A stretch of 64,000 nucleotides of DNA from Clostridium sp. BNL1100 (lineage in GTDB: Bacteria; Bacillota; Clostridia; Acetivibrionales; DSM-1351), in the NCBI RefSeq assembly GCF_000244875.1, contig NC_016791.1:989501-1053500 (forward strand). The letters run 5' to 3'. Below are positions 1 to 64,000 of this stretch, in pieces (position 1 is the stretch's first letter; each line of letters begins with the position of its first letter). The notes beneath the pieces are model-generated. The model did no database searches, had not been told where the DNA came from, and worked only from the letters and a program-made list of their open reading frames with translations. Both the position numbers and the translations under genes were made by a program.

Positions 1-1
1 T

Positions 2-2512
2 TATTCAACTATAAACTACGATATCCTTGGACTTGTTATCAAAAATGTGTCAGGTGAAAGCTATGAACAATATGTGAAAAGTAATGTTTTACAGCCGCTA
101 GGTCTTAATAATACTTACCTTTTTAGAAATGAAGTTCCCCAAGAGAATATGTCTTCGGGTTATAAGGTTAAATTTTTAAGGCCTGTAAAATATATTGCAC
201 CTATGTACAGAGGAAATACTCCGGCAGGGTATTACATTTCAAATGCAGTGGATATTGCAAAGTGGCTTAAAATTCAAATGAATACCATAGAACCGGGAAC
301 CTTTGATAAAAGCCTTATTGATATATCTCATATACCTGACAGAACGGTAGCACCAAACAGTGACGGATCTTCTTATGCTTATGGGTGGTCCGTGTTCCAG
401 AGCGGTGGAGGTGTGATATCACATGGAGGAAGTAATCCCAATTACTCATCATTTTTCTTATTCAGGCCTCAGGAACAGGTCGGTGTAGGTATTCTTGCTA
501 ATTTAAACTCCTCATTTACAGAAGTAACTGCCTATGGCATCGATAATATAATTCGAGGGGAAAAGCCGGTCAATTATTTATCAGACCAGTATCTTGCAAT
601 TGATAATGCTTCAACAACCATTACACTGATAGCTTTACCGGTAGCACTCGTAACTATTTTTTTGATATTGATTCTGATAATTCAGATTATAAAAAGAAAA
701 AGAATATATGTCGGCAAAGTGAAAAGGGTTCTCCTTAGCACCCTTTTCCTATCAATTTTCATATCTGGTCTGGGATACTGTATGTACAAAATTCCTGATG
801 CACTCTATGAGGGACTTCCATGGAGTTTTATTAAAGTCTGGGCACCACAGAGTCTTATGGTTGGAATTTCATTACTGATAGCATGTGTAACAATATTTTG
901 TATTTATTTTTTACTGACATCATTATTTATAAAAAAAAAGGATAAATCCTGGTTTGTAATTGCTGTTTTAAGTATTGTAAGCGGGTTTGGAAATGCAATA
1001 GTTATTTTTATTATAAATGAGGCATTAAACAGAACTAATGGTTTTCAAACCGGATTATTACTGTTTTTTGTATTGGGAATTGCTTTATATGTATACGGTC
1101 AACGTTTAGTAAGGGTCAGACTTTTAAAGCTTACAAATGAATTAGTATATAATACTCGGATGAATCTGATTGATGGAATTTTAAGAGCGTCTTATGAAAA
1201 AATAGAACAATTGGAAAATGGAAAGATTCATGCAGGGCTTAATAATGATTCAGAAACATTAAGCAATTTTGCAAACGTACTTATTTCGGCTATAACCAGC
1301 CTTGTAACACTTTTTTGCTGTTTTATTTATTTAGGAATAATAAATATTTACGGTTTACTTGTTTCAATTTTTGTTATATTCATAGCGGCAGGTTTATATT
1401 TTGTCGTAGGCAGACACGCCAACAAGCTGTGGGAAGAGACAAGGGATATTCAGAACATCTTTTTTAAATTTATCAATAGTCTGGTAAATGGTTTCAAAGA
1501 GCTTAAATTGCATAATAAAAGACAGATTGAATTTAGAGATGATATGAAGGAGAGTTGTAAAGAATACAAGGATAAGCGTATCAGGGGAGATTTGGGTTTT
1601 GCTAATGCATTTGTTATAGGAGAACTTCTTTTCACATTAGTAATCGGAGTTGTGGCCTTTGCTTTTCCTGTTCTTTTTAAAGATATACAAACCAGTTCTT
1701 TAAGAAACTACATATTTGTATTTTTATATATGACCGGGCCGGTAAATGGGGCTCTAAATTCAATACCACAAATTATAGGCGTTAGAATCAGCTATAAAAG
1801 ATTGAATGATTTAAAGAAAGAGTTGGAATGTGAAGATAAAAAAACAAATAAAACTGAATCTGATAACAAACTGCTGAGTAATAAATTTGAGTTAGAACTG
1901 AAAAACGTTGAATACAGCTATAAAAACAGCCACGGTGAGCTTTTTAAAGTAGGACCAATCAATTGTTCTTTCAAATCAGGCGAGGTTACATTTATTACAG
2001 GAGGTAACGGTAGCGGGAAGTCAACTCTTGCAAAACTTGTGACGGGGCTTTACAAGCCTGACAGCGGGGAAGCACTTGTAAATAATAATGTGACCGAGTT
2101 TGAAGATTTGAGTCAGAATTATTCAACGGTTTTTAGTGATTACTTTCTCTTTGACAAATTATACGGCATTGACTATAAGGATAAATCAGAAAGAATGCTG
2201 GAATTGTTAAAAATATTGCATATTGATGATAAGTTGAGTATAGACAATGGAGTGTTTAGTACGACTAAATTGTCAAGTGGGCAAAGAAAGAGATTGGCAC
2301 TGCTGGTTAGTTATCTGGAAGACAGAGAAATATACATATTTGATGAGTGGGCTGCAGATCAGGATCCTGAATTCAGAAAGTACTTTTATGAATACTTGCT
2401 GTCAGATTTAAAAGCCAGAGGGAAATGTGTTATTGCTGTGACCCATGATGATAGGTATTTTAATAAAGCAGATAAAATAATAAAAATGGAAATGGGTAAG
2501 ATTGGGCAATAA
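2..2512 (+). CDS. Prodrug-type peptidase fused to ABC exporter (5' partial)
   Basis: The frame is open from the window edge, so the true start lies upstream; 836 residues are visible. The first ~190 residues are the C-terminal part of a class C beta-lactamase-like serine hydrolase: a Y-S-T-x-N-Y segment at the edge (the YxN region) and a HGGSN segment (KTG-like box). The catalytic SxxK is upstream of the window. Three hydrophobic helices follow (about 205-230, 242-262, 277-305), then a second membrane domain and an ABC ATPase of the cyclic-peptide exporter (SyrD/PvdE) type: Walker A GGNGSGKST near 667, signature LSSGQ near 758, Walker B IYIFDE near 777, switch His in THDD near 814. ClbP has a peptidase plus three helices; XcnG and ZmaM are described as peptidase-transporter fusions. 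Inferred role: export of the precursor and removal of an N-acyl-D-amino-acid leader outside the cell. An ordinary transporter fused to a different hydrolase remains possible. Confidence 0.82.
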   Translation, partial: YSTINYDILGLVIKNVSGESYEQYVKSNVLQPLGLNNTYLFRNEVPQENMSSGYKVKFLRPVKYIAPMYRGNTPAGYYISNAVDIAKWLKIQMNTIEPGTFDKSLIDISHIPDRTVAPNSDGSSYAYGWSVFQSGGGVISHGGSNPNYSSFFLFRPQEQVGVGILANLNSSFTEVTAYGIDNIIRGEKPVNYLSDQYLAIDNASTTITLIALPVALVTIFLILILIIQIIKRKRIYVGKVKRVLLSTLFLSIFISGLGYCMYKIPDALYEGLPWSFIKVWAPQSLMVGISLLIACVTIFCIYFLLTSLFIKKKDKSWFVIAVLSIVSGFGNAIVIFIINEALNRTNGFQTGLLLFFVLGIALYVYGQRLVRVRLLKLTNELVYNTRMNLIDGILRASYEKIEQLENGKIHAGLNNDSETLSNFANVLISAITSLVTLFCCFIYLGIINIYGLLVSIFVIFIAAGLYFVVGRHANKLWEETRDIQNIFFKFINSLVNGFKELKLHNKRQIEFRDDMKESCKEYKDKRIRGDLGFANAFVIGELLFTLVIGVVAFAFPVLFKDIQTSSLRNYIFVFLYMTGPVNGALNSIPQIIGVRISYKRLNDLKKELECEDKKTNKTESDNKLLSNKFELELKNVEYSYKNSHGELFKVGPINCSFKSGEVTFITGGNGSGKSTLAKLVTGLYKPDSGEALVNNNVTEFEDLSQNYSTVFSDYFLFDKLYGIDYKDKSERMLELLKILHIDDKLSIDNGVFSTTKLSSGQRKRLALLVSYLEDREIYIFDEWAADQDPEFRKYFYEYLLSDLKARGKCVIAVTHDDRYFNKADKIIKMEMGKIGQ

Positions 2513-2563: not shown

Positions 2564-3601
2564 ATGGGGGAGTTTGTTAAAGAAATAAAGTGTGTTGTCT
2601 GGGATTTGGATAATACACTTTGGGATGGAATACTTCTTGAAGATAAAGATGTTATTTTAAAGCCTGGTATATGTGACATTATAAAAGAGCTTGATTCAAG
2701 AGGAGTGCTTAATTCAATAGCGAGCAAGAATAACTATGAAGATGCTGTGAAAAAGCTTGAGAAAGCAGGTATCAGGGAGTATTTTCTATACCCGGAAATA
2801 ACTTGGGATGCAAAGTCCAAATCGATAGATAGGATTATAAAAAATCTGAATATCGGGCAGGACACAATTCTTTTTATTGATGACCAGCAGTTTGAACTAG
2901 ATGAGGTTAAATATGAACTTCCGCAAGTAACGTGTATTAATTCCTGTGAATACATGAACCTGCTGGAATATCCGAGATTAAGGCAAAGATTTAACACAGA
3001 AGATTCAAAAAGAAGACGGTTAATGTACCTTGAAGATATTGAAAGAAAAAAAGATGAAGATAGCTATAACGGACCCACGGAGAAATTTCTTATGTCTCTG
3101 AATATGAGGGTTACAATTACAGAGGCGGAGGAAAGTGATCTGCAAAGAGCTGAAGAGTTGACAGTAAGAACCAATCAGTTAAATGCCACAGGGATAACCT
3201 ACAGTTACAGCGAACTTGACGAATACCGTAAAAGTGCTAATTACAAATTGTTTATCTGTGAGCTGGTTGATAAATATGGTTCTTACGGAAAGATTGGACT
3301 GGCTTTAGTGGAAATTAAGGAGTATTGGCATTTGAAGATGCTCTTAATGTCTTGCAGAGTTATGTCTAGAGGTATAGGAACTGTATTGCTGAGTTTTATT
3401 ATGAGACAAGCAAAGGATAAAGGCGGGAAACTCTATGGGGACTTTAAAATGACGGATAGAAACCGCCAAATGTATATCACATACAAGTTTGCTAATTTTA
3501 AGGAAGTACATATTGCTGATACTGATGGAGTAATTCTTATGCAGAATGATCTTTCAATGATACAAGAGTATCCGCCTTTTGTTGAAGTAAGTATTATGTA
3601 A
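2564..3601 (+). CDS. FkbH-like glyceryl-ACP synthase
   Basis: 345 residues, the normal size of stand-alone FkbH proteins. The N-terminal half is a HAD domain with motif I W-D-L-D-N-T-L-W (Asp14 and Asp16) and a second motif FIDDQQFE. The C-terminal half is the GNAT-like FkbH part with the family hallmark RTNQLN. FkbH enzymes take 1,3-bisphosphoglycerate, remove phosphate and load a glyceryl unit on a carrier protein. That unit is then oxidised to hydroxymalonyl-ACP or, with an FkbG methyltransferase, methoxymalonyl-ACP. No FkbG is seen here, so hydroxymalonyl is the simpler prediction. The start is set by a GGGGGTGA ribosome site just upstream. The likely partner is the carrier protein encoded 18 bp downstream. 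Confidence 0.9.
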   Translation: MGEFVKEIKCVVWDLDNTLWDGILLEDKDVILKPGICDIIKELDSRGVLNSIASKNNYEDAVKKLEKAGIREYFLYPEITWDAKSKSIDRIIKNLNIGQDTILFIDDQQFELDEVKYELPQVTCINSCEYMNLLEYPRLRQRFNTEDSKRRRLMYLEDIERKKDEDSYNGPTEKFLMSLNMRVTITEAEESDLQRAEELTVRTNQLNATGITYSYSELDEYRKSANYKLFICELVDKYGSYGKIGLALVEIKEYWHLKMLLMSCRVMSRGIGTVLLSFIMRQAKDKGGKLYGDFKMTDRNRQMYITYKFANFKEVHIADTDGVILMQNDLSMIQEYPPFVEVSIM

Positions 3602-3619: not shown

Positions 3620-3871
3620 ATGGATAGTGTTAAGATAATCAGAAATTTTATTAATGAAAACCTTATAACCTTTAATGAGGATGCAGCTTTTACCGATGAA
3701 GACGACATATTTAAATTGGGCTTTGTAAATTCCCTTTTTGCTATGAAGCTTCTTACATTTATCGAAAATGAGTTCAACATAAAAGTTGAAAATGAAGAAA
3801 TGGAATTATCAAATTTTAATTCGGTATCAAACATTGTAGGTTTTATTGACCGGAAAATAAAAAATAATTGA
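3620..3871 (+). CDS. Stand-alone acyl carrier protein 1
   Basis: An 83-residue acidic protein with the carrier-protein pattern G-F-V-N-S-L-F-A-M-K-L. The Ser in NSL is the expected phosphopantetheine site; the usual DSL is NSL here. It follows the FkbH gene by 18 bp, preceded by GAGAGGAAAAG as ribosome site. By position it should carry the glyceryl unit made by FkbH and present it to the dehydrogenases for conversion to hydroxymalonyl-ACP, the role of ZmaD-type carriers. The assignment of glyceryl to this carrier rather than the second one rests on adjacency only. Confidence 0.88.
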   Translation: MDSVKIIRNFINENLITFNEDAAFTDEDDIFKLGFVNSLFAMKLLTFIENEFNIKVENEEMELSNFNSVSNIVGFIDRKIKNN

Positions 3872-3922: not shown

Positions 3923-4774
3923 ATGCAATTTAGTAATATCGGTATAATAGGTGCAGGTACAATGGGAATTGGGATGTGTATAGACCTTGCATTCCATGGT
4001 AAGAGTAGTGTACTTGTGGATATTTCTGATGATACTCTGGAAAGTGCAAAAGCAGAGATTACAAAAATAGTCAGGTTTGCACCCTTACTGGATAAAACTC
4101 TCCCGAAGATGGACGCGGACGTCGTCTTGAGCAAAATTAAATTTACAACAGACATTGAAGACGTAGCAGAATGTGAATTTATTGTAGAGAATGTAACGGA
4201 AAATTGGGAAATCAAGGAGACAGTCTATAAGCAATTGAGCAAGATTTGCAATGCCGATGCCTGCTTTGCCGTGAATACGTCATGTATATCTATTACAAAA
4301 GTCGGAAGTGTAACTGACAGACCTGATAAGGTTATAGGAATCCATTTTATGAATCCGGTGTATTTGAAAAAAAGTGTGGAAGTAATAAAAGGTTTTCATA
4401 CATCTGAGGAAACCATAGATACAACACAGAGTTTTTTAAAACAGCTGAATAAGGAAGCTATTATTGTTAATGATCTGCCCGGTTTCGTTTCAAACAGAAT
4501 ATCACATTTGCTTATGAATGAAGCTGCTTTTGTTGTTCAAGACGGAGTGGCAAAACCTTCACAGGTGGATGAGATTTTCAAAAAATGCTTTAATCATAAA
4601 ATGGGTCCTCTTGAAACTGCAGATTTGATTGGATTGGATACTGTAGTTAATTCGCTGGACATCCTTTATGAAAGTTATCAGGACCCAAAATTTCGTTGTT
4701 GTCCCTTACTGAGAAAAATGGTGGATGCGAAATTATTGGGTAAAAAATCCGGCAAGGGATTTTATACATATTAA
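3923..4774 (+). CDS. 3-hydroxyacyl-CoA dehydrogenase-like enzyme (ACP-linked extender unit)
   Basis: 283 residues, full length for the FadB-type NAD domain plus its C-terminal helical domain. The Rossmann motif G-A-G-T-M-G is near residues 10-15 and the active-site His lies in H-F-M-N-P-V. Related enzymes (ZmaG, ClbD, FkbK) oxidise the terminal hydroxyl of glyceryl-ACP or seryl-ACP to the aldehyde. The gene lies between two carrier-protein genes, which fits a shared enzyme acting on both. The ribosome site GGAGGG precedes the start. The C-terminal GKKSGKGFYTY is the usual end of this family. A housekeeping fatty-acid role is unlikely given the context. Confidence 0.9.
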   Translation: MQFSNIGIIGAGTMGIGMCIDLAFHGKSSVLVDISDDTLESAKAEITKIVRFAPLLDKTLPKMDADVVLSKIKFTTDIEDVAECEFIVENVTENWEIKETVYKQLSKICNADACFAVNTSCISITKVGSVTDRPDKVIGIHFMNPVYLKKSVEVIKGFHTSEETIDTTQSFLKQLNKEAIIVNDLPGFVSNRISHLLMNEAAFVVQDGVAKPSQVDEIFKKCFNHKMGPLETADLIGLDTVVNSLDILYESYQDPKFRCCPLLRKMVDAKLLGKKSGKGFYTY

Positions 4775-4852: not shown

Positions 4853-5107
4853 ATGGAGAGTAATGTGTATGCTGAAAAAATAAGTGAGTATATAATGATG
4901 AATACTAACTTAAATAGTATTGACTACAATTTGGACATATTTGAGGAAGGACTAGTAAGTTCTTTATTTGCTATAGAGCTGATGACTTTTTTAGAAAAAA
5001 ACTTTGAAGTAAAAGTAACAATGGATGATTTAGATATGGAGAATTTTAAATGTGTAAATAACATAGTTAAGTTTGTTGAAAACAAACGAAATGGAGGCAA
5101 TGTATGA
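4853..5107 (+). CDS. Stand-alone acyl carrier protein 2
   Basis: An 84-residue acidic protein with E-G-L-V-S-S-L-F-A-I-E-L, where the Ser before LF is the predicted phosphopantetheine site. It is clearly related to the first carrier protein. A GGGAGGGT ribosome site precedes the start. It overlaps the next gene by an ATGA junction, so it is translationally coupled to the acyl-CoA dehydrogenase-like gene. The ClbE/ZmaH-type carriers next to such enzymes hold the seryl unit that becomes aminomalonyl; the free serine adenylation domain two genes downstream fits that role. Confidence 0.88.
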   Translation: MESNVYAEKISEYIMMNTNLNSIDYNLDIFEEGLVSSLFAIELMTFLEKNFEVKVTMDDLDMENFKCVNNIVKFVENKRNGGNV

Positions 5108-6264
5108 TTGAATTACTTTTAGATGAACAGAAGGATAAATATAATGAGTTTTGTAGTTTTGTGGAAAGTAATGTTCAACCATATGCAAGTGATTGGGAAA
5201 GAGAAGAGCGAATTTCCAAGGACATAGTTAATAAATGTATAGAACAAGGATATTTGGGATGTACCATACCTGAAGAATTCAATGGTAACGGATGGGATAG
5301 TATTACATATGGTATTTTTACAGAAGCAATAGCTCGTTCAAGTACTTCATTGGCCGGATTATTCAATGTACATACTATGGTAATGCAAACTCTCTTGAAG
5401 TGGGGAACTGAGGAACAAAAAAACAAATGGTTATACAGGATGTGTAAAGGTGAAATACTGGGTGCTTTTGCATTAACAGAGCCAGATGCCGGAAGTGATA
5501 TCAGAGGGATTAAAACCAGATTTACTCCCAAAGGTGATAAAATTATACTAAACGGAAAGAAGAGATGGATTACCTTTGGCGGTTTAGCAGATATATTTGT
5601 TGTCTTTGGAATGATGGATGATGAAAGCGGAAAACCTGTGGCATGTATTGTTGAGAAGAATACACCGGGGTTTGAAATAATACCAATTACAAATATGCTG
5701 GGATTCAAGGCAAGCTATTTGGCAGTACTTGAGTTTAATGATTGTGAGGTCGATAAGGAGAATATTATAGCAAAACCGGGTTTTGCATTTTCTCACATTG
5801 CTCCTTATGCCTTGGATTACGGGAGGGTCAGTGTGTCTTTCACAGCCCTTGGTATTATAGGCGGGTGTCTGAATTACTGTTGTAATCATGTTTTACGGAG
5901 AAAAACTTTTAATTCAAGACTTATTGACCAAAGTACTATTAAAGAAATGATAACCAAAATGGGTGTGGATTACGAAGCTGCGGGTCATTTATGCGTTAAT
6001 TCCTGCAGGGCAAAAGATTTGAATAACCCTAACTATGCAGAAAAAGTCATGATTGCAAAATATTTTACAACAAGAGCTGCACACAGACATGCTGATAACG
6101 CCGTTCAAATCATGGGTGCCACCGGTTGTAATGAAAATCATGCGACAGCAAGATACTATAGGGATTCTAAAGTATTGGAAATAATTGAAGGAAGTAATCA
6201 AATACATGAAATGATATTAGGTAACAGCTTCACTAAGAAATATAGAAAAATAGAAAAAAAATAA
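5104..6264 (+). CDS. Acyl-CoA dehydrogenase-like flavoenzyme (extender-unit formation)
   Basis: 386 residues, normal for the family. It shows the FAD/substrate segment F-A-L-T-E-P-D-A-G-S-D and the C-terminal catalytic Glu region I-I-E-G-S-N-Q-I-H. ZmaE/ZmaI, ClbF and FkbI-type members complete oxidation of the carrier-bound aldehyde to the acid, giving hydroxymalonyl-, aminomalonyl- or methoxymalonyl-ACP. The start codon overlaps the stop of the carrier-protein gene. Zwittermicin uses two such enzymes, one per extender; only one is visible here, so it may serve both carriers or a second may lie outside. Confidence 0.9.
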   Translation: MIELLLDEQKDKYNEFCSFVESNVQPYASDWEREERISKDIVNKCIEQGYLGCTIPEEFNGNGWDSITYGIFTEAIARSSTSLAGLFNVHTMVMQTLLKWGTEEQKNKWLYRMCKGEILGAFALTEPDAGSDIRGIKTRFTPKGDKIILNGKKRWITFGGLADIFVVFGMMDDESGKPVACIVEKNTPGFEIIPITNMLGFKASYLAVLEFNDCEVDKENIIAKPGFAFSHIAPYALDYGRVSVSFTALGIIGGCLNYCCNHVLRRKTFNSRLIDQSTIKEMITKMGVDYEAAGHLCVNSCRAKDLNNPNYAEKVMIAKYFTTRAAHRHADNAVQIMGATGCNENHATARYYRDSKVLEIIEGSNQIHEMILGNSFTKKYRKIEKK

Positions 6265-6309: not shown

Positions 6310-7890
6310 ATGACAGATATGGGTAACACATGTGATATCGAGATTTTATACCAGCATATTAATGATACAAAAGCAGTTTATCCAAAGGATAAAACGGTTA
6401 TAAAACTGTTTCAGGAGCAGGTAAAAAAGAATCCGGAAGCTAAAGCAGTAATTTTCGGTGAGAAAAGTCTTACGTATGGAGAACTGGATAAGAAATCAAG
6501 TCAGGTCGCCTATTTATTACATACAAAGGGAATTTCCACAGGAAACATAATAGGGATAATGCTGGAGCGCTCTCTTGAGATGATTATTGGGATATTTGGA
6601 ATAATAAAAAGCGGAGCTGCTTACCTTCCGATTTCACCGGAGCTTCCTGTAAAAAGAATTGAGTATATTATTTCGGATAGTAACAGTGAATATTTGCTTA
6701 CCACTACCAGGTTCTTAGACAAACTTCAGGGGATAAACACTAAAATTATAGATTTAGAACAAGAGTCCATTTATTCTTTGCCTGAATATACCAACGACTC
6801 AATAGAGCCATCTGATTTAATTTATGTAATATATACTTCAGGTTCCACAGGGAACCCTAAGGGGGTAATGGTAGAACATTATTCTGTGGTCAACAGACTT
6901 AACTGGATGAAAAATAAATATCCCCTCACTCAGAGTGACACTATTTTACACAAAACACCTTTTGTATTTGATGTTTCTGTATGGGAGTTGTTCTTGTGGG
7001 CTATTACAGGTGCCAAGGTGGCACTACTGGGCCCCGGATATGAAAAATTTCCACAGGGGATAATTGAGGAAGTGGAAAAGAGCCAGGTTACAATAATCCA
7101 TTTCGTACCTTCCATGTTTAATTCGTTTTTAAATTACCTTAAAGATACTGAATACGTAAAAAAACTATCAAGCTTGAAGCAGGTGTTTTGCAGTGGTGAA
7201 GCTCTGCTGCCCATACATGTTAAAAAGTTTAATGAAACAATCGGTAAAAGCGGCAATGCATTTCTGACTAATTTATATGGGCCAACCGAGGCAACCGTTG
7301 ACGTAACTTATTTTGATTGTAATGATGTGAATAATGATATAGTACCTATCGGAAAACCCATCGATAATATAAGGATTTATATTATCAATGGGTCTGATTT
7401 GCAGCCGGTAGGGAGCAGCGGTGAATTATGTATTGCAGGTGATGGGCTGGCAAGGGGATACCTGAACCAACCCAAATTGACAGAAGAAAAATTCACAGGT
7501 ATTGCCATAAATAGTGAAGAAAGAATTTATAGGACAGGAGATCTTGCACGTCTTTTACCTGACGGAAATATCGAATTTCTTGGCAGAATGGACAACCAAG
7601 TCAAAATTAGAGGATTGCGGATTGAATTGGGAGAAATTGAGTCTAAGATTGGTGAATATGAATATGTTGAACAATGTGTTGTAGTATTAAAGAATCAGGA
7701 GCAGATCAATCCTGTTTTGACTGCATATATACTTACTGACAGGGAGGAATTAACTGCAAAAGAAATCAAGCAGTTTTTAAAGACTCAATTACCTGAGTAT
7801 ATGATCCCGAATCAGTATATTATGTTAAATAAATTACCATTAACACAAAATGGAAAAATAGACAGAAAAGCGTTGTTGCTTCATAATTGA
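6310..7890 (+). CDS. Free-standing adenylation domain, serine-activating
   Basis: 526 residues holding only an A domain: A3 YTSGSTGNPKG, A5 YGPTE, A7 YRTGDLA and A10 NGKIDRKA. No condensation or carrier domain is attached. Aligned by eye to GrsA, the specificity positions read D-V-W-H-F-S-L-V-D-K, which is the classic EntF serine code. ZmaJ in zwittermicin is the known counterpart: it loads serine on a discrete ACP for aminomalonyl formation. The likely target here is the second carrier protein. The ribosome site AAGGAGA sits upstream of the ATG. Confidence 0.92.
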   Translation: MTDMGNTCDIEILYQHINDTKAVYPKDKTVIKLFQEQVKKNPEAKAVIFGEKSLTYGELDKKSSQVAYLLHTKGISTGNIIGIMLERSLEMIIGIFGIIKSGAAYLPISPELPVKRIEYIISDSNSEYLLTTTRFLDKLQGINTKIIDLEQESIYSLPEYTNDSIEPSDLIYVIYTSGSTGNPKGVMVEHYSVVNRLNWMKNKYPLTQSDTILHKTPFVFDVSVWELFLWAITGAKVALLGPGYEKFPQGIIEEVEKSQVTIIHFVPSMFNSFLNYLKDTEYVKKLSSLKQVFCSGEALLPIHVKKFNETIGKSGNAFLTNLYGPTEATVDVTYFDCNDVNNDIVPIGKPIDNIRIYIINGSDLQPVGSSGELCIAGDGLARGYLNQPKLTEEKFTGIAINSEERIYRTGDLARLLPDGNIEFLGRMDNQVKIRGLRIELGEIESKIGEYEYVEQCVVVLKNQEQINPVLTAYILTDREELTAKEIKQFLKTQLPEYMIPNQYIMLNKLPLTQNGKIDRKALLLHN

Positions 7891-39699: not shown

Positions 39700-39775
39700 A
39701 AAATTCAGTGAGCTATTGGGCAAGGTAGAGGAATTTTTTCTTGTTCTGATAAGAAAGGGAGGGGGATTATATTTT

Positions 39776-54390: not shown

Positions 54391-57300
54391 ATGGAAAGGA
54401 TACAAAAGTTAATAGTACAGAATGTACTATCGGGAAGTATTAGTGAAGAACAAGCATATGAAATGATTAAGGTATTAAGACAAAAAAATACAAAATCAGA
54501 AGAGCCAATAGCTGTTATAGGAATGGCGGTTAATTTACCTCAGGCAAAAGATATAAATCAATACTGGGATATTATAAGTAATAAAATCAATTGTGTATGT
54601 TCATTTCCCGAAAATAGGCGCAGAGACATAGATGATTTTCTGGAGTACCAAAAAATTGACCCATCGGACATAAAGTACAGACAAATGGCTTTTCTGGGCC
54701 AAATTGACAAATTTGATTGTGAATTTTTCAAGATTTCACCCAGAGAGGCAGGACTAATGGACCCAAATCAGAGATTATTCCTCCAAACAGCATGGAACTC
54801 AATTGAAGATGCAGGATACGGCGGAGATAGACTCAAGGGAACGAAGACAGGAGTATATGTGGGATTCCGTGGTGATTCAGAATATAAAAGATTAATATTG
54901 GATACCCAGCCTGAAGCATTTTCTATTGCCGAAGCAGGAAACCTTACCTCCGTCATTGCAAGCCGCATATCTTACATATTGGATTTAAAAGGGCCAAGTA
55001 TTGTAGTAAACACCGCATGTTCTTCATCACTGGTAGCCATACATTATGCATGTCAGGGAATAAGGTCAGGTGAATGTGATATGGCAATAGCCGGGGCTGT
55101 AAAAATAATACTGGCCCCTTTTGAGTATGAAAATAAACTTGGAATTGAGTCTTCTGATTCGAGAACCAAGTCATTCGATAATAGCTCTGACGGTACCGGA
55201 GAAGGTGAAGGTGTAGCTTCCGTATTATTGAAACCTTTATCAAAGGCCTTGAAGGACGGTGATCCGATTTATGCCGTTATAAAAGGTTCTGCCATAAATC
55301 AGGACGGCAGTTCAAACGGAATAACCGCCCCCAACCCAAAAGCTCAGGCTGATGTTATAAAAATGGCCTGGAAGGATGCAAAGGTTGAACCCGAAACAAT
55401 AGCTTACATAGAAGCTCACGGGACTGGTACCAAAATCGGTGATCCAATAGAAATAGACGGAATTACCAGTGCATTCAGAAGCTATACAAATAGAAACAGT
55501 TTTTGTGCCGTAAGCTCTGTAAAGACAAATTTGGGACATCTTGACACTGCTGCCGGGGTTGCAGGTTTCGTAAAGGCGGTATTGGCTTTAAAAAACAGAA
55601 AACTACCTCCCTTGGCTTCCTTTAATAGTCCTAACAAGGCATTAAACCTGATAGAATCTCCGGTTTATATTGCAGATAAACTCATGGATTGGGATACGGA
55701 AGGCTCCCCAAGAAGGTGTGGAGTCAGCTCTTATGGATTAAGTGGCACAAACTGCCACATGGTTTTGGAGGAAGCTCCTTCGACTAAAGTCAATGATGTG
55801 ACAGGCTTTCTGAATGTGCTTACTGTTTCTGCAAAATCAAAAGAATCCCTTCGAAGTCTATTTGATACATATATAGAATTTTTCAGAAAGGCAACAAAAG
55901 AAGATTTCAGAAATATATGTTATACCTCAAACACAGGAAGAGGTCACTACAAGTATAGAATTGCTGTTTTTCTGGAACCGGAAGAAAGCCTACAGGACAT
56001 TATCGGCAAGCTTGAATCCATAAAATTGGATGAGCACAATGCAGAGGGCATTTTCTATGGAGAACCGAAAAATAATCATCCCCACAATAGAGATAGCAAG
56101 ACAAGGGAAACTATTGAAGCCGATATACTAAAAAGAGCATTGACGAAAATTGATGATTTTGTTTGCACCGGTAAAGTGGATAGGAGATTGTTATTTGACA
56201 TATGTACTCTATATATTCAAGGTGCCGAATTTGACTGGAAGGATTTATATAAAGACGAAGATAACACTAAAGTCAATATCCCCGTCTATCCCTTTACACA
56301 AAAAAGATGTTGGCTACAAATTGACAATGAAAATAAAAATGAAGCTTTTAATACTAAAGAATACTACAAGGAGATTGATCATCCCCTCCTTGACAGATGT
56401 TTAGTTAAGACAATTAATGAAATTATATTCGCAACAGATTTTAATATAGACAGACATTGGGTGTTAAGTGAGCATTCAATTGGCGGTATCAGTGCAGTCC
56501 CGGGAACAACTTACCTTGAAATTGCCGTACAAGCAGCAAAATACTGCTACAAAAAGGAGGTTGCCTGCATTGAGGATGTTCAATTCTATACTCCTTTGAT
56601 AGTAAGAGAAGATGAAACAATAAGTGCACATACTTGCATAAGAGAACAAAATGGAGAAGTGTATTTTTCAGTAGCCAGCTGTGAGAAAGCTGATGAAACG
56701 GATAGTCAGGATAAATGGAATCTCCATGCTACCGGAAAACTGTCATTGAGTAAGCTTGAAAGTCCGGAAAACATCAACATGAAGGAATTATTTTCAAGAC
56801 TTGGCAGTGAAGAAACCTTCCAGTTTGACTATAACCAAAAGATGCAATTTGGTTCAAGATGGCAATGTATGAAAAGTATCAGAAGCGGAGATGACGAAGG
56901 TCTTGTATATATTGAACCTTTAAAACATCTTGTTGACGAAGTTGATAAATATATGCTGCATCCTGCAATTTTGGACAATGCTACTGCTTTAGGCATAAGT
57001 AGTGAGTTTTTCTATTTACCGTTTTCATATAAAAAGATAGAGATATTTAAACCTATACCTGCAAATAGTTATGTGTACATAAACCAACTTCCTGAAAGGG
57101 ATGGAAGTAAAGAAATTGTAAAACACAACTTATCCATAATTAATCCTGCAGGAGAAATCGTTGTAAAAATTCATGATTTTACAATGAAAAAGGTAAAGGA
57201 TATAAGTCATACGATAGGGAAAAACAAAGCTATAGACAACTTGTTCTTTAGGTTGCGATGGGAAGAGGAGAAGAATTTCTATGAAGATATTGAAGAAGAC

Positions 57301-60300
57301 GGCAAAACCATATTAGTTATTAAAGATGATAGCGTAAATGCGGAAAGTATAATATCTGAATTAAAACAAAGACAGAATAGTGTCATAGAAGCGGATATAG
57401 GGACGAGCTATCACAGAGTTAGCGAGTACCGGTATACTGTTGGCATAGGAGAAGAGGATTTTGCAAAATTACTAAGAGATACTATGGGGTATGGAATAAC
57501 TCAGATTTTATATTTATCAAAACTAACCAGTGATTGCGGTGAAAAAATAAATCAAACAGTCGGGAATCCATCCCAATCCATATACACGATGTTTTACCTT
57601 ACCAGAGCCTTAGTAAACAGCAAGCTGAAGGGAGCCCTTGATGTTGTACTCATTTCTGGATATGCCAATAAGGTAACAGGAAAAGAAGAAGCAATAATCC
57701 CCCAAAATACTGCACTTTTTGGATATGGGAAGGTTGTAGGCCAGGAATACCCGGATTTAAAAGTTAGATGTATAGATATCGATGACAATATGATTGCAAA
57801 AGAACTGATTTCAGAAATCGGCAGGGAGAATAAGAACTTTTTAGTATCATATCGTAACGGAAAGAGATATGTTGAGGTATTCGAATCCGTAATAGCATCC
57901 GAAATACCACAAAATGATCTTGTTTTAAATAAAAAGGGCGTTTATATCATTACAGGAGGAATTGGCGGTATCGGACTTGAAATTGCCAAATACCTTGCAT
58001 CAAAGGAAAACATTAACCTTGCGTTGCTTTCCAGAACTGAGCTTCCTGAGCGGGATAAATGGGATGAGTTTATCAAAGATGATAAAAATGAAAAGCTCGG
58101 TAAAAAGATAAAATCATTATTAGAGATAGAGAGTACCGGTTCAAATATTGCATATTGCCGGGCAGATGTTACTAACTACGAGGAAGTTTCTGCAGTTATT
58201 AATCAATTGAGGACTCAATACACAAAAATCAACGGAATAATCCACAGTGCCGGAGTGCCGGGAGCCGGGCTGATTATAACAAAAAATGAAGATCAAATTA
58301 CAAAAGTACTGGCTTCAAAAATAATCGGTACATATAACCTTGACCGTGCAACAGAAAGTGATGAATTGGAATTCTTCGTTCTCTTTTCATCAATAAAAAG
58401 TTTATTAGGTGGTGAGGGACAAAGCGATTATGCAGCGGCAAATGCATATTTAGATGCATACACTCACTATAGAAACAGACTTGGAAAAAGAACCTTGACC
58501 ATAAACTGGCCTGCATGGAAGGAAACCGGAATGGCCGCAGACTATGGAGTAAACAAGGACAATGTTTTCAAAGCCATAAGTACTCAGGATGGAATAGAGG
58601 CATTTGGAAAAGCCTTACTGAGTGATATGGAAAGAGTTATAATCGGAGAATTGGATTACAGTGATCCAATTCTATCTTCTGAGCAGAATTTTATAAGAAT
58701 GTCCCAGAGTCTGAAACTAAAAATTGAGCAGGAATTAAAGAAATCAGTATCCGGAAGAAATAACAGGGCAAAGGAACAAATTCACTCTTTTGTTTTAAAA
58801 GGGAAAGAGGGGGAGACATACACTGAGATTGAAAAAACAGTAGGAAAAATATGGACTGAAGCCTTGGGATTGCACGAAATAAATATATATGATGATTTTT
58901 ATGGTATGGGAGGAGATTCAATACTTGCAATAAATATAGTAAGCGGTATTAAGAATCTTATGAATCTCGACATAAATATAAGTGATTTTTTTGATAATCC
59001 TTCAGTTTATGATTTTGCAAGGTTTATTGAGACAACTCAAGCCTGTGAAAGTACTACTTCAAATGAATTAAAATATAATAAAAAAACTCTGATCCCGGCG
59101 GCTGAGGCAAAAGAATACTATCATGTATCCTCAGGCCAGAGAAGAATGTATATAATGAGTCAGGTGGACGGGGAAACAACAAACTACAATATTCCCGGTG
59201 TAAATACTATTGAAGGGGAACTGGATAGAAAACATTTTGAAGAAGTATTCGAAGTATTAATACAAAGACATGAAGCATTCAGAACCTCATTCAAGGTGGT
59301 AGATGATGAGCCTGTGCAGGTAATTCACAAAGATATCGACTTTACTATTGAGTACATAGACGCACAGGAATCACAGGTAAGGGATATTATCGATGGGTTC
59401 ATACGTCCTTTTAACTTGAAAATGGCACCCCTTATAAGGGTTGGTCTTATCTCCTTGTCAAAAACCAAGCATATATTGATACATGATATTCATCATATTG
59501 TTTTTGATGGAAGTTCTATGCGAATTTTGATGAAGGAATTTTTCACTCTGTATAATAGGCAGAAATTGACAGAAATGCTTCTCCAGTACAAAGATTTCTG
59601 CGAATGGGAAAATAATCTAATAAAATCAGGAAGTATGAGCAAACAGGAGGAATACTGGCTGAATACTTTCTCAGGCCGGATACCTCAACTTATAATGCCA
59701 CTTGATTACAAAAGGGCAAGGGTTCAGACCTTTAATGGAGACACAATTAACTTTAATATCTCAAGTGATATAAAAGATAAAGTATACGGGCTGGTAAAAG
59801 AACAGAATATCACCTTGAATATATTGTTTTTTTCCATGTTTGCCTTACTCATAAACAAATATTCCTCACAAAAGGATATAGTAGTAGGTTCTTCTGTTGC
59901 AGGAAGGCCCTATGAAGAGTTGAACGATATTATCGGAATGTTTGTAAATTCGATTGCCATCAGGATAAATATTGATACTGAAAGTAAAATTCAGGAGTTT
60001 TTAAAGTATTCAAGGGATATAATAGTTGCGGCATATGATAATCAAAGTTATCCCTTTGACAAGCTGGTAGAAAAGCTGTCATCAAAAATAGACCGTTCTA
60101 GAAATCCGTTGTTTGATGCAATGTTGATTTACCATAATGAGTTTGACACAAATACGGAGGATGAACCGGAGGACATAAGGTTTTCCAATTATGAATTCAG
60201 CAGAAAAACATCAACACTGGATTTTAAAATGGATGTATACCCTCAGAAAGAAGGAGGGTTTAGCTGTGTACTTGAATATAATGTGGACCTGTATAAAAAG

Positions 60301-63300
60301 GAAACAATGGATACCTTCATAAAGCATTTCATTATGCTTTTAGAGGATGTCGTAAATAACCCGACTCAGGTCGTATCGGAAATCGATGTGTTTACCAATG
60401 AAGAAAGGCTACTGATAGAGCAGAAGAGGAAGAACAACGGTTCAGAAGGAAGCAACTCCTTGAAGTTAGCTGTAAGCTCCACGTTTACAGCCGAACCTAT
60501 CTTGGACTATATCGCATGGTGGTGTAAAGAGTTCAAGGAGCCTGTGGAGATTGAATTTGCTCCGTACAATCAGGTATTTCAGGAACTTTTAAACGAATCC
60601 AGTTTGATATCCGGAAATACAGGACTGAACTTACTGCTTGTACGTTTTGAGGACTGGATCAGGGATGATATGTCAGAAGACGGGTCAAAGATTGAAAAGC
60701 TTGAAAGGAACTTTAGGGAACTGGTACAGCTCCTTGAAAACAAGAAAAAATCAATCCCGTACTTTGTTGGTATATTCCCGGTTTCAACCCATCTTTCCCT
60801 TGGTACTGAACTGGTGAATCACCTTGAAGAAATGAACAGAAGATGGAAGGAAAGCTTAAAGAATATCAAAGAGGTTTATACGGTAGACTTTAGCTTGGCA
60901 GAAGAATTATATGATGTCGGAGAGATTTTTGATAAATCCAAAGATAAAGCCGGGCACATACCATTTACCGACGAATACTTCTCTGTAATAGGGACTATGG
61001 CAGCACGAAAAATATGTGCATGGAAAAAACAAACCTTCAAGGTGATAGTACTTGACTGTGACAATACTCTTTGGAGTGGCATATGCGGTGAAGGAACTGC
61101 CTGTGAAGTAGATGTGGCTGAACCATATCGTGCACTTCAAAGCTTCATGCTGCAAAAACGCAATGAAGGAATGCTTCTTGCTTTATGCAGTAAGAACAAT
61201 GAAAAGGATGTATGGGAAGTCTTTGATAACAACAAACAAATGATGTTGAAGAAAGAACATTTTGCAGCATATCGGATTAACTGGAACAACAAGTCTCAGA
61301 ACATAGCGGAGATGGCAGCTGAGTTAAATCTGGGAATAGACAGCTGTATATTCATTGATGATAATCCGGCAGAGTGTGCCGAAGTAATGACAAACTGTCC
61401 GCAAGTATTGACCCTGCAATTGCCTGAGGATCAAAATCAGATAGAAATGTATCTAAGGCATGTTTGGGCCTTTGACAAATTGAAGGTAACAAAAGAGGAC
61501 AGGACAAGAGCTCAAATGTATACTGCTGAAAAGAAAAGGCAGGAGTCACAAAAGGAACTATCCTCACTGGACGATTTCCTTAAAGGACTGGAAATCAAAA
61601 TGAGTATGAACATAATGGAGGAACAGGAGACCGACAGGGTTTCTCAATTAACACAAAGAACAAACCAATTCAATCTCAGCACAATACGCAGAACCGAAAA
61701 AGAAATAAATGAAATAACCCTGCTACCCGATAAAAAATGCCATGTAATAAAAGTATCCGACAGATTTGGGGACTACGGACTTGTAGGTGTGGTAATAACG
61801 GAAGAAAAAGGGAATAGCCTGTTTGTTGAAACACTGCTGTTAAGCTGCAGGGTACTGGGAAAAGAAATAGAGGATTCAATTCTGGTAGGCCTTGCAAAGC
61901 AATGCAGAGAGCAAGGTATTGACATTATGGAAACGGAATATCTGCTTACGGAAAAGAATAAGCCTGTACTGGAATTCCTTGAGAGAACGGGATGGGAAAG
62001 AGTAGGTACAACAGAAAAAGGTATAAAATTCAAAATTGCCGTTGATAAGGTACCTGCAAGGGCCAAATATGTTGATTGCTACTTCAATTCCAGCTATCCT
62101 GACTCCAGAGCGGCAGTAGAAGAGAAGGAAGTGTCAAAGGCGCCAAGCCATGAGGATAATGAGGCTCAGGTAGAAACAGTAGCAGCAACAAAGCCGGGTG
62201 ACCTAAAATGGGAAGTACATATAGTAAACGAGGAGAAGCTTTTACACAGAGAATACATGTCCCCATTAATGAAGTGCACAGTTAAGGAGCTTCTGGAGAT
62301 ACCCAAATTTGAAAGGGTAAGCAGCAACCCGGCTAAAACTGAGTATGTACCACCAAGAAACCAAGTAGAAGAGGAAATCTGCAAAATATGGCAGATAGTA
62401 TTGAATGTAGAGACTGTAGGCATAGACGATTCATTTTTTGAATTGGGCGGAAACTCACTAAAGGCTGTATCTGTTATATCTAAAATTCACAACAGGTTCA
62501 GCGTTGAAATGTTTTTAAGAGATATATTTAGTGCACCGACTGTAAGAGAAATGGCAGAACTAATCGGGAATCTGGATAAGAGCTTATATACAAATATTCA
62601 ACCGGTTGAAGAAAAGGAATACTACTCTCTTTCCTCTGCTCAAAGAAGAATGTACATAATAAATAAAATGGAAGGGGCTACAACAAACTATAATAATCCG
62701 GGTGTAAATGTTATTGCGGGTGAACTGGACAAGGTGAGACTGGAAGAAGTGTTTAAAGCATTAATACAAAGACATGAAGCATTCAGAACCTCATTTAAGG
62801 TGGTAGATGGCGAACCTGTTCAGATAATTCATAAAGAAGCAGACTTTAAAATAGAACATATTATGGCAGAGGAATCAGACGTGGACAGAGTTATTGAGGA
62901 GTTTATACGTCCGTTTGAGTTGGAAAGAGCACCATTGTTGCGGGTAGGTCTGGTTGAATTATCAAGCCAAAAGCATATATTAATATGTGATATGCACCAT
63001 ATTATATCTGACGGAGTCTCAGTAAATATTTTAGTAAATGAGTTCATACAACTGCTTAATGGAAAAAGTTTACCTAAGACTTTGTTACACTACAAGGATT
63101 ACTCCGAATGGCAAAATAAGCTAATAAAATCAGGGAGTATGAGCAAGCAGGAGGAATACTGGCTGAATACCTTCTCAGGACAGATACCTGAACTTGCAAT
63201 GCCTCTTGATTACAAAAGGACAAGGGTTCAGACCTTTAATGGAGACACAATTAACTTTAGTATTTTAAGTGACATAAAAGATAAAATACATGAACTGGTA

Positions 63301-64000
63301 AAAGAACAGAATATCACCTTGAATATACTGTTTTTCTCCATGTTTGCCTTACTCATAAACAAATATTCCTCACAAAAGGATATAGTAGTAGGTTCTTCTG
63401 TTGCAGGAAGGCCCTATGAAGAGTTGAACGATATTATCGGAATGTTTGTAAATTCGATTGCCATCAGGATAAATATTGATACTGAAAGTAAAATTCAGGA
63501 GTTTTTAAAGTATTCAAGGGATATAATAGTTGCGGCATATGATAATCAAAGTTATCCCTTTGACAAGCTGGTAGAAAAGCTGTCATCAAAAATAGACCGT
63601 TCTAGAAATCCGTTGTTTGATGCAATGTTGATTTACCATAATGAGTTTGACACAAATACGGAGGATGAACCGGAGGACATAAGGTTTTCCAATTATGAAT
63701 TCAGCAGAAAAACATCAACACTGGATTTTAAAATGGATGTATACCCTCAGAAAGAAGGAGGGTTTAGCTGTGTACTTGAATATAATGTGGACCTGTATAA
63801 AAAGGAAACAATGGATACCTTCATAAAGCATTTCATTATGCTTTTAGAGGATGTCGTAAATAACCCGACTCAGGTCGTATCGGAAATCGATGTGTTTACC
63901 AATGAAGAAAGGCTACTGATAGAGCAGAAGAGGAAGAACAACGGTTCAGAAGGAAGCAACTCCTTGAAGTTAGCTGTAAGCTCCACGTTTACAGCCGAAC
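54391..64000 (+). CDS. PKS-NRPS megasynthase KS-DH-KR-ACP-C-FkbH-PCP-C-(FkbH...) (3' partial)
   Basis: Open to the window end; at least 3203 residues. N-terminal docking helix 1-40. KS (Cys210 in T-A-C-S-S-S-L, His motifs intact), no AT. DH about 660-940 (H695 in H-S-I-G-G-I-S-A-V-P, Asp862 in H-P-A-I-L-D). KR from ~1184 (GGIGGIG, Tyr1347). ACP Ser1510. C about 1572-2010 (HHIVFDG at 1701). A long-form FkbH domain follows at 2025-2570: an N-terminal V-S-S-T-F-T-A-E-P domain, HAD L-D-C-D-N-T-L-W-S (Asp2222) and L-T-Q-R-T-N-Q-F-N. PCP Ser2689. Second C about 2740-3180 (HHIISDG at 2869), then the same FkbH N terminus begins at the edge. FkbH takes the place of an adenylation domain, predicting glyceryl units joined by the C domains, probably as esters. 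Confidence 0.92.
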   Translation, partial: MERIQKLIVQNVLSGSISEEQAYEMIKVLRQKNTKSEEPIAVIGMAVNLPQAKDINQYWDIISNKINCVCSFPENRRRDIDDFLEYQKIDPSDIKYRQMAFLGQIDKFDCEFFKISPREAGLMDPNQRLFLQTAWNSIEDAGYGGDRLKGTKTGVYVGFRGDSEYKRLILDTQPEAFSIAEAGNLTSVIASRISYILDLKGPSIVVNTACSSSLVAIHYACQGIRSGECDMAIAGAVKIILAPFEYENKLGIESSDSRTKSFDNSSDGTGEGEGVASVLLKPLSKALKDGDPIYAVIKGSAINQDGSSNGITAPNPKAQADVIKMAWKDAKVEPETIAYIEAHGTGTKIGDPIEIDGITSAFRSYTNRNSFCAVSSVKTNLGHLDTAAGVAGFVKAVLALKNRKLPPLASFNSPNKALNLIESPVYIADKLMDWDTEGSPRRCGVSSYGLSGTNCHMVLEEAPSTKVNDVTGFLNVLTVSAKSKESLRSLFDTYIEFFRKATKEDFRNICYTSNTGRGHYKYRIAVFLEPEESLQDIIGKLESIKLDEHNAEGIFYGEPKNNHPHNRDSKTRETIEADILKRALTKIDDFVCTGKVDRRLLFDICTLYIQGAEFDWKDLYKDEDNTKVNIPVYPFTQKRCWLQIDNENKNEAFNTKEYYKEIDHPLLDRCLVKTINEIIFATDFNIDRHWVLSEHSIGGISAVPGTTYLEIAVQAAKYCYKKEVACIEDVQFYTPLIVREDETISAHTCIREQNGEVYFSVASCEKADETDSQDKWNLHATGKLSLSKLESPENINMKELFSRLGSEETFQFDYNQKMQFGSRWQCMKSIRSGDDEGLVYIEPLKHLVDEVDKYMLHPAILDNATALGISSEFFYLPFSYKKIEIFKPIPANSYVYINQLPERDGSKEIVKHNLSIINPAGEIVVKIHDFTMKKVKDISHTIGKNKAIDNLFFRLRWEEEKNFYEDIEEDGKTILVIKDDSVNAESIISELKQRQNSVIEADIGTSYHRVSEYRYTVGIGEEDFAKLLRDTMGYGITQILYLSKLTSDCGEKINQTVGNPSQSIYTMFYLTRALVNSKLKGALDVVLISGYANKVTGKEEAIIPQNTALFGYGKVVGQEYPDLKVRCIDIDDNMIAKELISEIGRENKNFLVSYRNGKRYVEVFESVIASEIPQNDLVLNKKGVYIITGGIGGIGLEIAKYLASKENINLALLSRTELPERDKWDEFIKDDKNEKLGKKIKSLLEIESTGSNIAYCRADVTNYEEVSAVINQLRTQYTKINGIIHSAGVPGAGLIITKNEDQITKVLASKIIGTYNLDRATESDELEFFVLFSSIKSLLGGEGQSDYAAANAYLDAYTHYRNRLGKRTLTINWPAWKETGMAADYGVNKDNVFKAISTQDGIEAFGKALLSDMERVIIGELDYSDPILSSEQNFIRMSQSLKLKIEQELKKSVSGRNNRAKEQIHSFVLKGKEGETYTEIEKTVGKIWTEALGLHEINIYDDFYGMGGDSILAINIVSGIKNLMNLDINISDFFDNPSVYDFARFIETTQACESTTSNELKYNKKTLIPAAEAKEYYHVSSGQRRMYIMSQVDGETTNYNIPGVNTIEGELDRKHFEEVFEVLIQRHEAFRTSFKVVDDEPVQVIHKDIDFTIEYIDAQESQVRDIIDGFIRPFNLKMAPLIRVGLISLSKTKHILIHDIHHIVFDGSSMRILMKEFFTLYNRQKLTEMLLQYKDFCEWENNLIKSGSMSKQEEYWLNTFSGRIPQLIMPLDYKRARVQTFNGDTINFNISSDIKDKVYGLVKEQNITLNILFFSMFALLINKYSSQKDIVVGSSVAGRPYEELNDIIGMFVNSIAIRINIDTESKIQEFLKYSRDIIVAAYDNQSYPFDKLVEKLSSKIDRSRNPLFDAMLIYHNEFDTNTEDEPEDIRFSNYEFSRKTSTLDFKMDVYPQKEGGFSCVLEYNVDLYKKETMDTFIKHFIMLLEDVVNNPTQVVSEIDVFTNEERLLIEQKRKNNGSEGSNSLKLAVSSTFTAEPILDYIAWWCKEFKEPVEIEFAPYNQVFQELLNESSLISGNTGLNLLLVRFEDWIRDDMSEDGSKIEKLERNFRELVQLLENKKKSIPYFVGIFPVSTHLSLGTELVNHLEEMNRRWKESLKNIKEVYTVDFSLAEELYDVGEIFDKSKDKAGHIPFTDEYFSVIGTMAARKICAWKKQTFKVIVLDCDNTLWSGICGEGTACEVDVAEPYRALQSFMLQKRNEGMLLALCSKNNEKDVWEVFDNNKQMMLKKEHFAAYRINWNNKSQNIAEMAAELNLGIDSCIFIDDNPAECAEVMTNCPQVLTLQLPEDQNQIEMYLRHVWAFDKLKVTKEDRTRAQMYTAEKKRQESQKELSSLDDFLKGLEIKMSMNIMEEQETDRVSQLTQRTNQFNLSTIRRTEKEINEITLLPDKKCHVIKVSDRFGDYGLVGVVITEEKGNSLFVETLLLSCRVLGKEIEDSILVGLAKQCREQGIDIMETEYLLTEKNKPVLEFLERTGWERVGTTEKGIKFKIAVDKVPARAKYVDCYFNSSYPDSRAAVEEKEVSKAPSHEDNEAQVETVAATKPGDLKWEVHIVNEEKLLHREYMSPLMKCTVKELLEIPKFERVSSNPAKTEYVPPRNQVEEEICKIWQIVLNVETVGIDDSFFELGGNSLKAVSVISKIHNRFSVEMFLRDIFSAPTVREMAELIGNLDKSLYTNIQPVEEKEYYSLSSAQRRMYIINKMEGATTNYNNPGVNVIAGELDKVRLEEVFKALIQRHEAFRTSFKVVDGEPVQIIHKEADFKIEHIMAEESDVDRVIEEFIRPFELERAPLLRVGLVELSSQKHILICDMHHIISDGVSVNILVNEFIQLLNGKSLPKTLLHYKDYSEWQNKLIKSGSMSKQEEYWLNTFSGQIPELAMPLDYKRTRVQTFNGDTINFSILSDIKDKIHELVKEQNITLNILFFSMFALLINKYSSQKDIVVGSSVAGRPYEELNDIIGMFVNSIAIRINIDTESKIQEFLKYSRDIIVAAYDNQSYPFDKLVEKLSSKIDRSRNPLFDAMLIYHNEFDTNTEDEPEDIRFSNYEFSRKTSTLDFKMDVYPQKEGGFSCVLEYNVDLYKKETMDTFIKHFIMLLEDVVNNPTQVVSEIDVFTNEERLLIEQKRKNNGSEGSNSLKLAVSSTFTAE
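59617..60496 (+). repeat. Tandem module repeat, copy A (visible part)
   Basis: Covers the second half of the first C domain and the start of the FkbH N-terminal domain in the last megasynthase. It aligns without gaps to 63121-64000 at an offset of exactly 3504 bp (1168 codons). The first ~215 bp are similar with scattered differences; from 59833 to 60496 (664 bp) I found no mismatch. The repeat continues past the window edge. Confidence 0.95.
63121..64000 (+). repeat. Tandem module repeat, copy B (runs off window)
   Basis: Second copy, matching 59617-60496 in the same reading frame. From 63337 to the end of the window every base compared agrees with copy A. The copy therefore includes the beginning of a second FkbH domain, and a repeated C-FkbH-PCP module downstream is expected. 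The identity suggests recent duplication or gene conversion. Confidence 0.95.

Follow-up and report, generated by a model that had tools for sequence, protein, structure and literature searches.

The window analysed here, a 64,000-nucleotide stretch of the Clostridium sp. BNL1100 genome (a single contig of 4,613,747 bases), contains on its plus strand a hybrid PKS-NRPS open reading frame (ORF) that starts at position 54391 and is still open at the window end. The full protein has 4256 residues and is encoded by positions 54391-67161 in window numbering, its last part lying outside the window on the same contig. In the HMM layout the order of the whole protein is KS-DH-KR-ACP-(C-FkbH-PCP)-(C-FkbH-PCP)-BtrH_N-like domain, and the part inside the window reads KS-DH-KR-ACP-C-FkbH-PCP-C in one frame; Pfam detects in that part two Condensation and two PP-binding domains in addition to the KS, DH and KR. 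The coordinates 60457-62580, to which the initial annotation had drawn attention, correspond to the first FkbH domain and its PCP. Its description of a C domain, FkbH, PCP and C domain in one frame without an A domain is borne out by Pfam, NCBIfam and the HMM layout, as are the internal position of the module, which is followed by a C domain, and the assignment of the carrier serine as Ser2689. The twin module is the last of the protein, whose most unusual features are located past the window end. The first C domain ends at residue 2005 and the FkbH domain starts at residue 2025, and since only 19 residues lie in this gap in the HMM layout an A domain cannot fit ahead of the FkbH domain. We also considered a starter-loading FkbH module of the kind found in suomilide, which is ruled out by the C domain and full PKS module upstream.

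Table 1. Features of the PKS-NRPS locus, with domain inserts from related loci. Positions follow window numbering unless a locus is named.
Feature	Position	Strand	Details	Basis
Beta-lactamase-fold peptidase + ABC transporter fusion	1..2512	+	1037 aa; start lies 601 bases ahead of position 1	
Stand-alone short FkbH	2564..3601	+	345 aa	
Small ACP-like ORF	3620..3871	+	83 aa	by eye
3-Hydroxyacyl-CoA dehydrogenase	3923..4774	+	283 aa	
Small ACP-like ORF	4853..5107	+	84 aa	by eye
Acyl-CoA dehydrogenase	5104..6264	+	386 aa	
Stand-alone A domain	6310..7890	+	code DVWHFSLV	
PKS-NRPS ORF	54391..64000	+	4256 aa; runs on to 67161	
KS domain	54508..55776	+	aa 40-462	Pfam, HMM layout
DH domain	56371..57210	+	aa 661-940	Pfam, HMM layout
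KR domain	57844..58626	+	aa 1152-1412	Pfam, HMM layout
ACP	58822..59019	+	aa 1478-1543	HMM layout
C domain 1	59125..60405	+	aa 1579-2005; HHIVFDG; predicted ester-forming	Pfam, layout, tree
Near-exact repeat, copy 1	59791..62430	+	aa 1801-2680	
FkbH domain 1	60463..62034	+	aa 2025-2548	NCBIfam, layout, alignment
PCP 1	62341..62565	+	aa 2651-2725; Ser2689	Pfam, layout
C domain 2	62629..63909	+	aa 2747-3173; HHIISDG	Pfam, layout, tree
Near-exact repeat, copy 2	63295..64000	+	in-window part; continues to 65934	
FkbH domain 2	63967..64000	+	aa 3193-3716; start only in window	layout
PCP 2	past window end		aa 3819-3891	
BtrH_N-like domain	past window end		aa 3926-4256	
Glyoxalase-fold insert	L041:10782-11750			
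Glyoxalase-fold insert	L047:11582-12532			
Glyoxalase-fold insert	L054:11576-12568			
Glyoxalase-fold insert	L105:11613-12638			

The window opens with a fusion of a peptidase and an ABC transporter (Pfam was run on the 836 residues inside the window), followed by a stand-alone short FkbH at 2564..3601 that likely serves a hydroxymalonyl-type extender, two small ACP-like ORFs, two dehydrogenases and a stand-alone A domain. We take the code of this A domain to be serine-like and the incomplete code of the first module's A domain, D-L-T-?-?-?-E-V, to be Asn-like; the codes were located through motif anchors, and several of them could be read only in part. The first module ends in a C-like domain that could be an E domain, and two stand-alone ATs are present. 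Because of the peptidase-ABC fusion, the incomplete Asn-like code, the extender-type genes and the two ATs, the cluster looks zwittermicin-like with a different end. The fusion belongs to the length class of prodrug-activating peptidases (compare the ZmaM-like type of about 1,100 residues; PMC9889268) and is a feature shared with zwittermicin, paenilamicin and edeine (PMC9889268, PMC4207774). In the available excerpts of these two papers zwittermicin is described with an N-acyl-D-Asn prodrug and a hydroxymalonyl extender, and for clusters of its type those excerpts mention no terminal FkbH module. The cluster also contains a GNAT acetyltransferase (PF12746, PF00583; 9192-10334), which possibly confers self-protection by analogy with PamZ of paenilamicin (PMC9054821), and a peptidase U32-like gene (39641-40939).

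FkbH domains and the architectures that contain them

Residues 2215-2535 of the first FkbH domain match the NCBIfam model TIGR01686 with 310.1 bits (cut-off 146.65, E 1.6e-92). The HAD part has the DxDxT motif (D2222-C-D2224-N-T2226) together with S2267, K2301 and D2323/D2324, and the acyltransfer part has RTNQFN from residue 2423 and C2486, presumably the cysteine that holds the glyceryl group; the catalytic roles of the other motif residues are likewise presumed. Ten tested motif residues are kept in 32/32 aligned domains (alignment A4, 32 rows of 33, with L071 left out for a stop in the stretch) and in both tandem copies. After the HAD motif the alignment consensus is GEDG and both tandem copies have GEGT. 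A sequence search of the PDB with the FkbH-PCP stretch gave one partial match to the HAD part, 3slr, the other listed matches being to the carrier part. Homology favours the proposal of the initial annotation that the module loads glyceryl without an A domain and joins it through an ester, and we treat these activities as predicted from the sequence.

We compared the host protein with published systems as they are described in the available excerpts of the papers cited. For the FkbH domain of vioprolide synthesis 1,3-bisphosphoglycerate has been proposed as the donor and D-3-phosphoglycerate has been shown to be activated (PMC10099666), and a module of the C-FkbH-carrier type whose C domain forms an ester has been characterised (PMC8949500, PMC10099666, PMC12397197). 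VioA (FAAL-ACP-C-FkbH-T) shares with the host the A-free C-FkbH-carrier arrangement, which there ester-links glycerate to a fatty acid, but its single described module is the second of the line and follows a fatty-acid loader, whereas the host closes its line with two consecutive modules downstream of a PKS module; the likeness is drawn from the published description. Corramycin ComK (FAAL-ACP-C-HAD-T) has a vioprolide-like start and differs in being at the start of the line with a single such module (PMC10099666). A seven-module NRPS of Leaf82, which came from mining for SulM-like thioesterase domains, has an FkbH-like domain in its fifth module where an A domain is expected; this internal replacement is as in the host, but it involves one module and is uncharacterised (PMC11298585). 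In BurF (malleicyprol) an ester-forming C domain adjoins an FkbH-derived N-terminal (NEX) part, and unlike the host modules BurF keeps only this part and has a reductase domain at its end (PMC12304814). The presence of an FkbH domain is by itself no proof of loading, since the FkbH-like domain of OocJ sits in a module judged inactive (PMC4552970) and that of BurF is partial. Single C-FkbH-PCP modules are thus already known, and the tandem with a fused BtrH-like end is an unusual variant; among the matches listed from the open-licence literature we found no paper naming tandem C-FkbH-PCP modules.

A scan of a genome collection (84,980 species) yielded 392 confirmed FkbH relatives, and the best 80 of the 392 were examined. 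The scan relied on a pair of peptide patterns derived from closely related proteins, so that the sample leans towards the FkbH type of the PKS-NRPS protein. Together with further relatives and the two clusters of the host, these gave 104 FkbH domains with more than 70% model coverage (L018 and L030 were dropped as duplicates of L037 and L038, and locus ends truncate some of the frames). Twenty-seven of the 104 have the layout C-FkbH-PCP-C, two of them within the host genome and 25 outside it, the latter including Bacillota, Bacteroidota, Pseudomonadota, Acidobacteriota, Cyanobacteriota, Chloroflexota and Aminicenantes. The remainder are C-FkbH-PCP only (16), FkbH-PCP without an annotated neighbour on either side (31), C-FkbH-PCP-BtrH (one, the PKS-NRPS protein itself) and others (29). 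At the level of genomes the long FkbH type is uncommon, being found at E<=1e-120 in 2/398 genomes drawn from the phylum and 9/58 of the order, the host being counted in both. The internal C-FkbH-PCP module, which the initial annotation had put forward as new on the view that FkbH domains are known as stand-alone or starter-loading units, is common among the FkbH-bearing assembly lines of this sample; that view is not supported in the light of vioprolide, corramycin, the Leaf82 NRPS and the 25 non-host examples, and we reject the claim of novelty. Occurrences of the internal module are many (27/104) but characterised ones are few.

The second host cluster (C1 3.16-3.19 Mb in contig coordinates) encodes C-FkbH-PCP-C-A-PCP-C at C1:3169323-3177557; its FkbH-PCP is 51% identical to the module at 60457-62580, and similar proteins of 2738-2774 residues are found in three genomes of the same genus (G002, G006, G009). 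In 4/4 tested inserts between FkbH and PCP we detected a glyoxalase-fold domain (PF13669; Table 1), and L020, L044, L049, L050 and L055 have inserts of comparable length that begin in a similar way. A reductase-like domain (PF07993) follows FkbH-PCP at L039:12113-13381, where a C domain is ahead, and at L112:11951-13258, and possibly provides a reductive end.

C domains ahead of FkbH

Both C domains of the host protein carry HHxxxDG, and we placed them in a FastTree phylogeny built from 168 C domains, of which 47 stand directly before FkbH and two more both after and before one (C domains covering <=85% of the model were dropped from the counts and the tree). The pattern HHxxxD[GA] has no match in 9/47 of the pre-FkbH C domains. 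On the tree, the label for a position directly before FkbH needs 14 changes against a shuffled mean of 41.2 (0/500 shuffles as low), a comparison that tests clustering only and to whose signal near-copies add, in a tree with flagged long branches. Both host domains fall within a group of 22 (local support 99), drawn from Bacillota, Bacteroidota and Aminicenantes, every member of which directly precedes an FkbH domain.

Three residues in the C-terminal half of the domain, within the repeat described below, mark this group: H1915, K1946 and D1948 are present in 22/22 members and elsewhere in 10/119, 2/118 and 12/117 C domains, respectively. Another 27 pre-FkbH C domains are scattered in the tree outside the group, with H1915 in 1/27 and K1946 and D1948 in 0/27 each, so these private residues are not required in all FkbH modules and may be a mere mark of descent. 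From the vioprolide precedent and the membership of this group, both host C domains are putatively ester-forming.

A BtrH_N-like domain at the end of the line

The C-terminal domain of the PKS-NRPS protein resembles BtrH_N and Peptidase_C39_2. Its BtrH_N match scores 33.7 bits for the domain alone (Pfam cut-off 29.7) and 29.2 bits, just under the cut-off, within the whole protein; 15/15 aligned relatives match BtrH_N at E<=0.01, and Cys3944, Asp4031, His4046 and His4049 (C25, D112, H127 and H130 of the domain) are invariant among those 15. A PDB sequence search with the domain gave no match better than E 0.41. BtrH of butirosin synthesis, described in PMC10318531 as an ACP:aminoglycoside acyltransferase, belongs likewise to a cysteine acyltransferase family and takes an acyl group off a carrier protein; unlike BtrH, the domain described here is fused to a PKS-NRPS C terminus.

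Homologues of the domain occur in 22 of 100 relatives, the host genome included. Among 20 BtrH-like loci, nine (the PKS-NRPS protein included) have a PCP directly ahead, one has a C domain ahead and ten are stand-alone, although one of these ten (L118, in G005) is cut by a contig end and two (L134, L135) are partial matches. The nine with a PCP followed by a BtrH_N-like end lie at clostridial PKS-NRPS termini (L119, L122, L123, L124, L126, L127, L130, L131 and the PKS-NRPS protein), and this recurring ending in Clostridia is possibly a further type of chain release. No paper naming a PCP-BtrH_N fusion was found among the matches listed from the open-licence literature.

A separate observation concerns Ruminiclostridium hungatei (L037:8866-15665), where a row of genes encodes a glycosyltransferase-like protein, an FkbH protein with a carrier-like end, directly after it a partial BtrH match, a protein with no Pfam domain and an SDR-like protein. 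The carrier-like end was called by eye, the PCP model giving no match, and so were the glycosyltransferase-like and SDR-like proteins. The row suggests a candidate small cassette in which a BtrH-like enzyme would move glyceryl off its carrier.

The tandem repeat and a proposed route

A second C-FkbH-PCP, which runs past the window end (contig coordinates C1:1053461-1055584), is 95% identical to the first over query residues 1-707. At a shift of 1168 residues (3504 bases) the two modules contain a near-exact repeat that differs at 17/2640 nucleotides and 4/880 residues, with a longest exact run of 980 bases, and that begins within the C domain and stops just short of the PCP serine motif. Outside these borders the modules diverge: 61/162 residues differ in the N-terminal part of the C domain (1579-1740), 10/60 just ahead of the repeat (1741-1800) and 34/35 past the PCP serine motif (2691-2725).

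In the draft genome of a sister species (G005) the DNA flanking the repeat is 93% identical over 1.7 kb. There contig C17 ends at about residue 1770 and contig C44 begins at residue 3859, directly after the GGNSL of the second PCP, and an FkbH of the tandem's type was not found in the draft contigs in searches at E<=1e-60 and E<=1e-120. A short-read assembler would lose a near-exact repeat, which would explain why contigs end at both borders; the contig ends suggest that the repeat is conserved and homogenised, two copies in G005 being presumed. If G005 does have two, the host copies, 0.6% apart, are younger than the split between species that here differ by about 7%, and this would point to gene conversion. 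Gene conversion or a very recent duplication best explains, in our inference, the nearly identical unit from C-domain lobe to PCP serine.

We consider it probable, on the strength of these sequence comparisons, that the hybrid PKS-NRPS ends in two tandem modules that insert glycerate and join it by ester bonds, followed by BtrH-like transfer or release. Each FkbH domain would take phosphoglycerate, judging from the family most likely D-1,3-bisphosphoglycerate; the glyceryl group would be held, probably on Cys2486 and its twin, the HAD part would remove the phosphate and D-glyceryl would pass to the adjacent PCP. An A domain would be unnecessary in this proposal because FkbH itself would load glyceryl onto the PCP. 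By the vioprolide precedent and the C-domain group, the first C domain would esterify a hydroxyl of the glyceryl on the first PCP with the polyketide-peptide acyl chain arriving from upstream, and the second would repeat the esterification on the second PCP, giving a chain-O-glyceroyl-O-glycerate end. The cysteine domain resembling BtrH_N would then take the chain off the second PCP and either pass it on to an acceptor bearing an amine or hydroxyl or cyclise it. If this is true, glycolysis supplies glycerate as a building block that can be added repeatedly through ester links, and the repeat would point to a natural exchange unit; its borders, one within the C domain and the other at the serine of the carrier, bear on NRPS engineering. 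Tentatively, we extend the proposal to a zwittermicin-like chain that ends in an oligo-glycerate ester and is handed over in BtrH fashion, the exchange unit of C lobe, FkbH and PCP being kept identical by gene conversion.

It is unlikely, in our judgement, that only one module is used per chain, whether through skipping or because a recent duplicate is unused, and that the product contains a single glycerate. The near identity of the copies over 2.6 kb is what would be expected of a very recent duplication, but the N-terminal part of the C domain and the post-serine part of the PCP have diverged as if each fitted its own neighbour, and the contig ends in G005 suggest that the repeat is not new. 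Moreover, a second tandem within one protein, C-FkbH-glyoxalase-PCP-C-FkbH-PCP in a Clostridia MAG (L041), has FkbH copies only 61% identical to each other; its two C domains pair together in the tree, apart from those of the PKS-NRPS protein.

We regard as quite improbable the loading of Ser2689 and its twin by an A domain working in trans, with the FkbH domains as relics or in another role. The cluster does contain a stand-alone A domain with a presumably serine-like code (6310-7890), but its neighbours are the two dehydrogenases and the pair of small ACP-like ORFs, an arrangement like that of zwittermicin-type extender synthesis. The ten tested FkbH residues kept in both copies, and C domains of a group found only before FkbH, also argue for loading by FkbH. 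Equally improbable is the reading in which glyceryl is a precursor of a carbon chain or ring (tetronate-like or hydroxymalonyl-like) and not an ester-linked unit: glycerate and beta-keto thioesters do give tetronates elsewhere (PMC12304814) and a stand-alone FkbH does occur with dehydrogenases in the cluster, but a C domain, not a KS, stands ahead of each FkbH-PCP, and the dehydrogenases are grouped with the stand-alone FkbH and the small ACP-like ORFs at the opposite cluster end. A misassembly of the reference genome is a very improbable origin for the tandem, for although near-exact repeats may be assembled wrongly, the copies lie in frame on one contig with 17 differences and different flanks, and the related G005 draft breaks at both borders.
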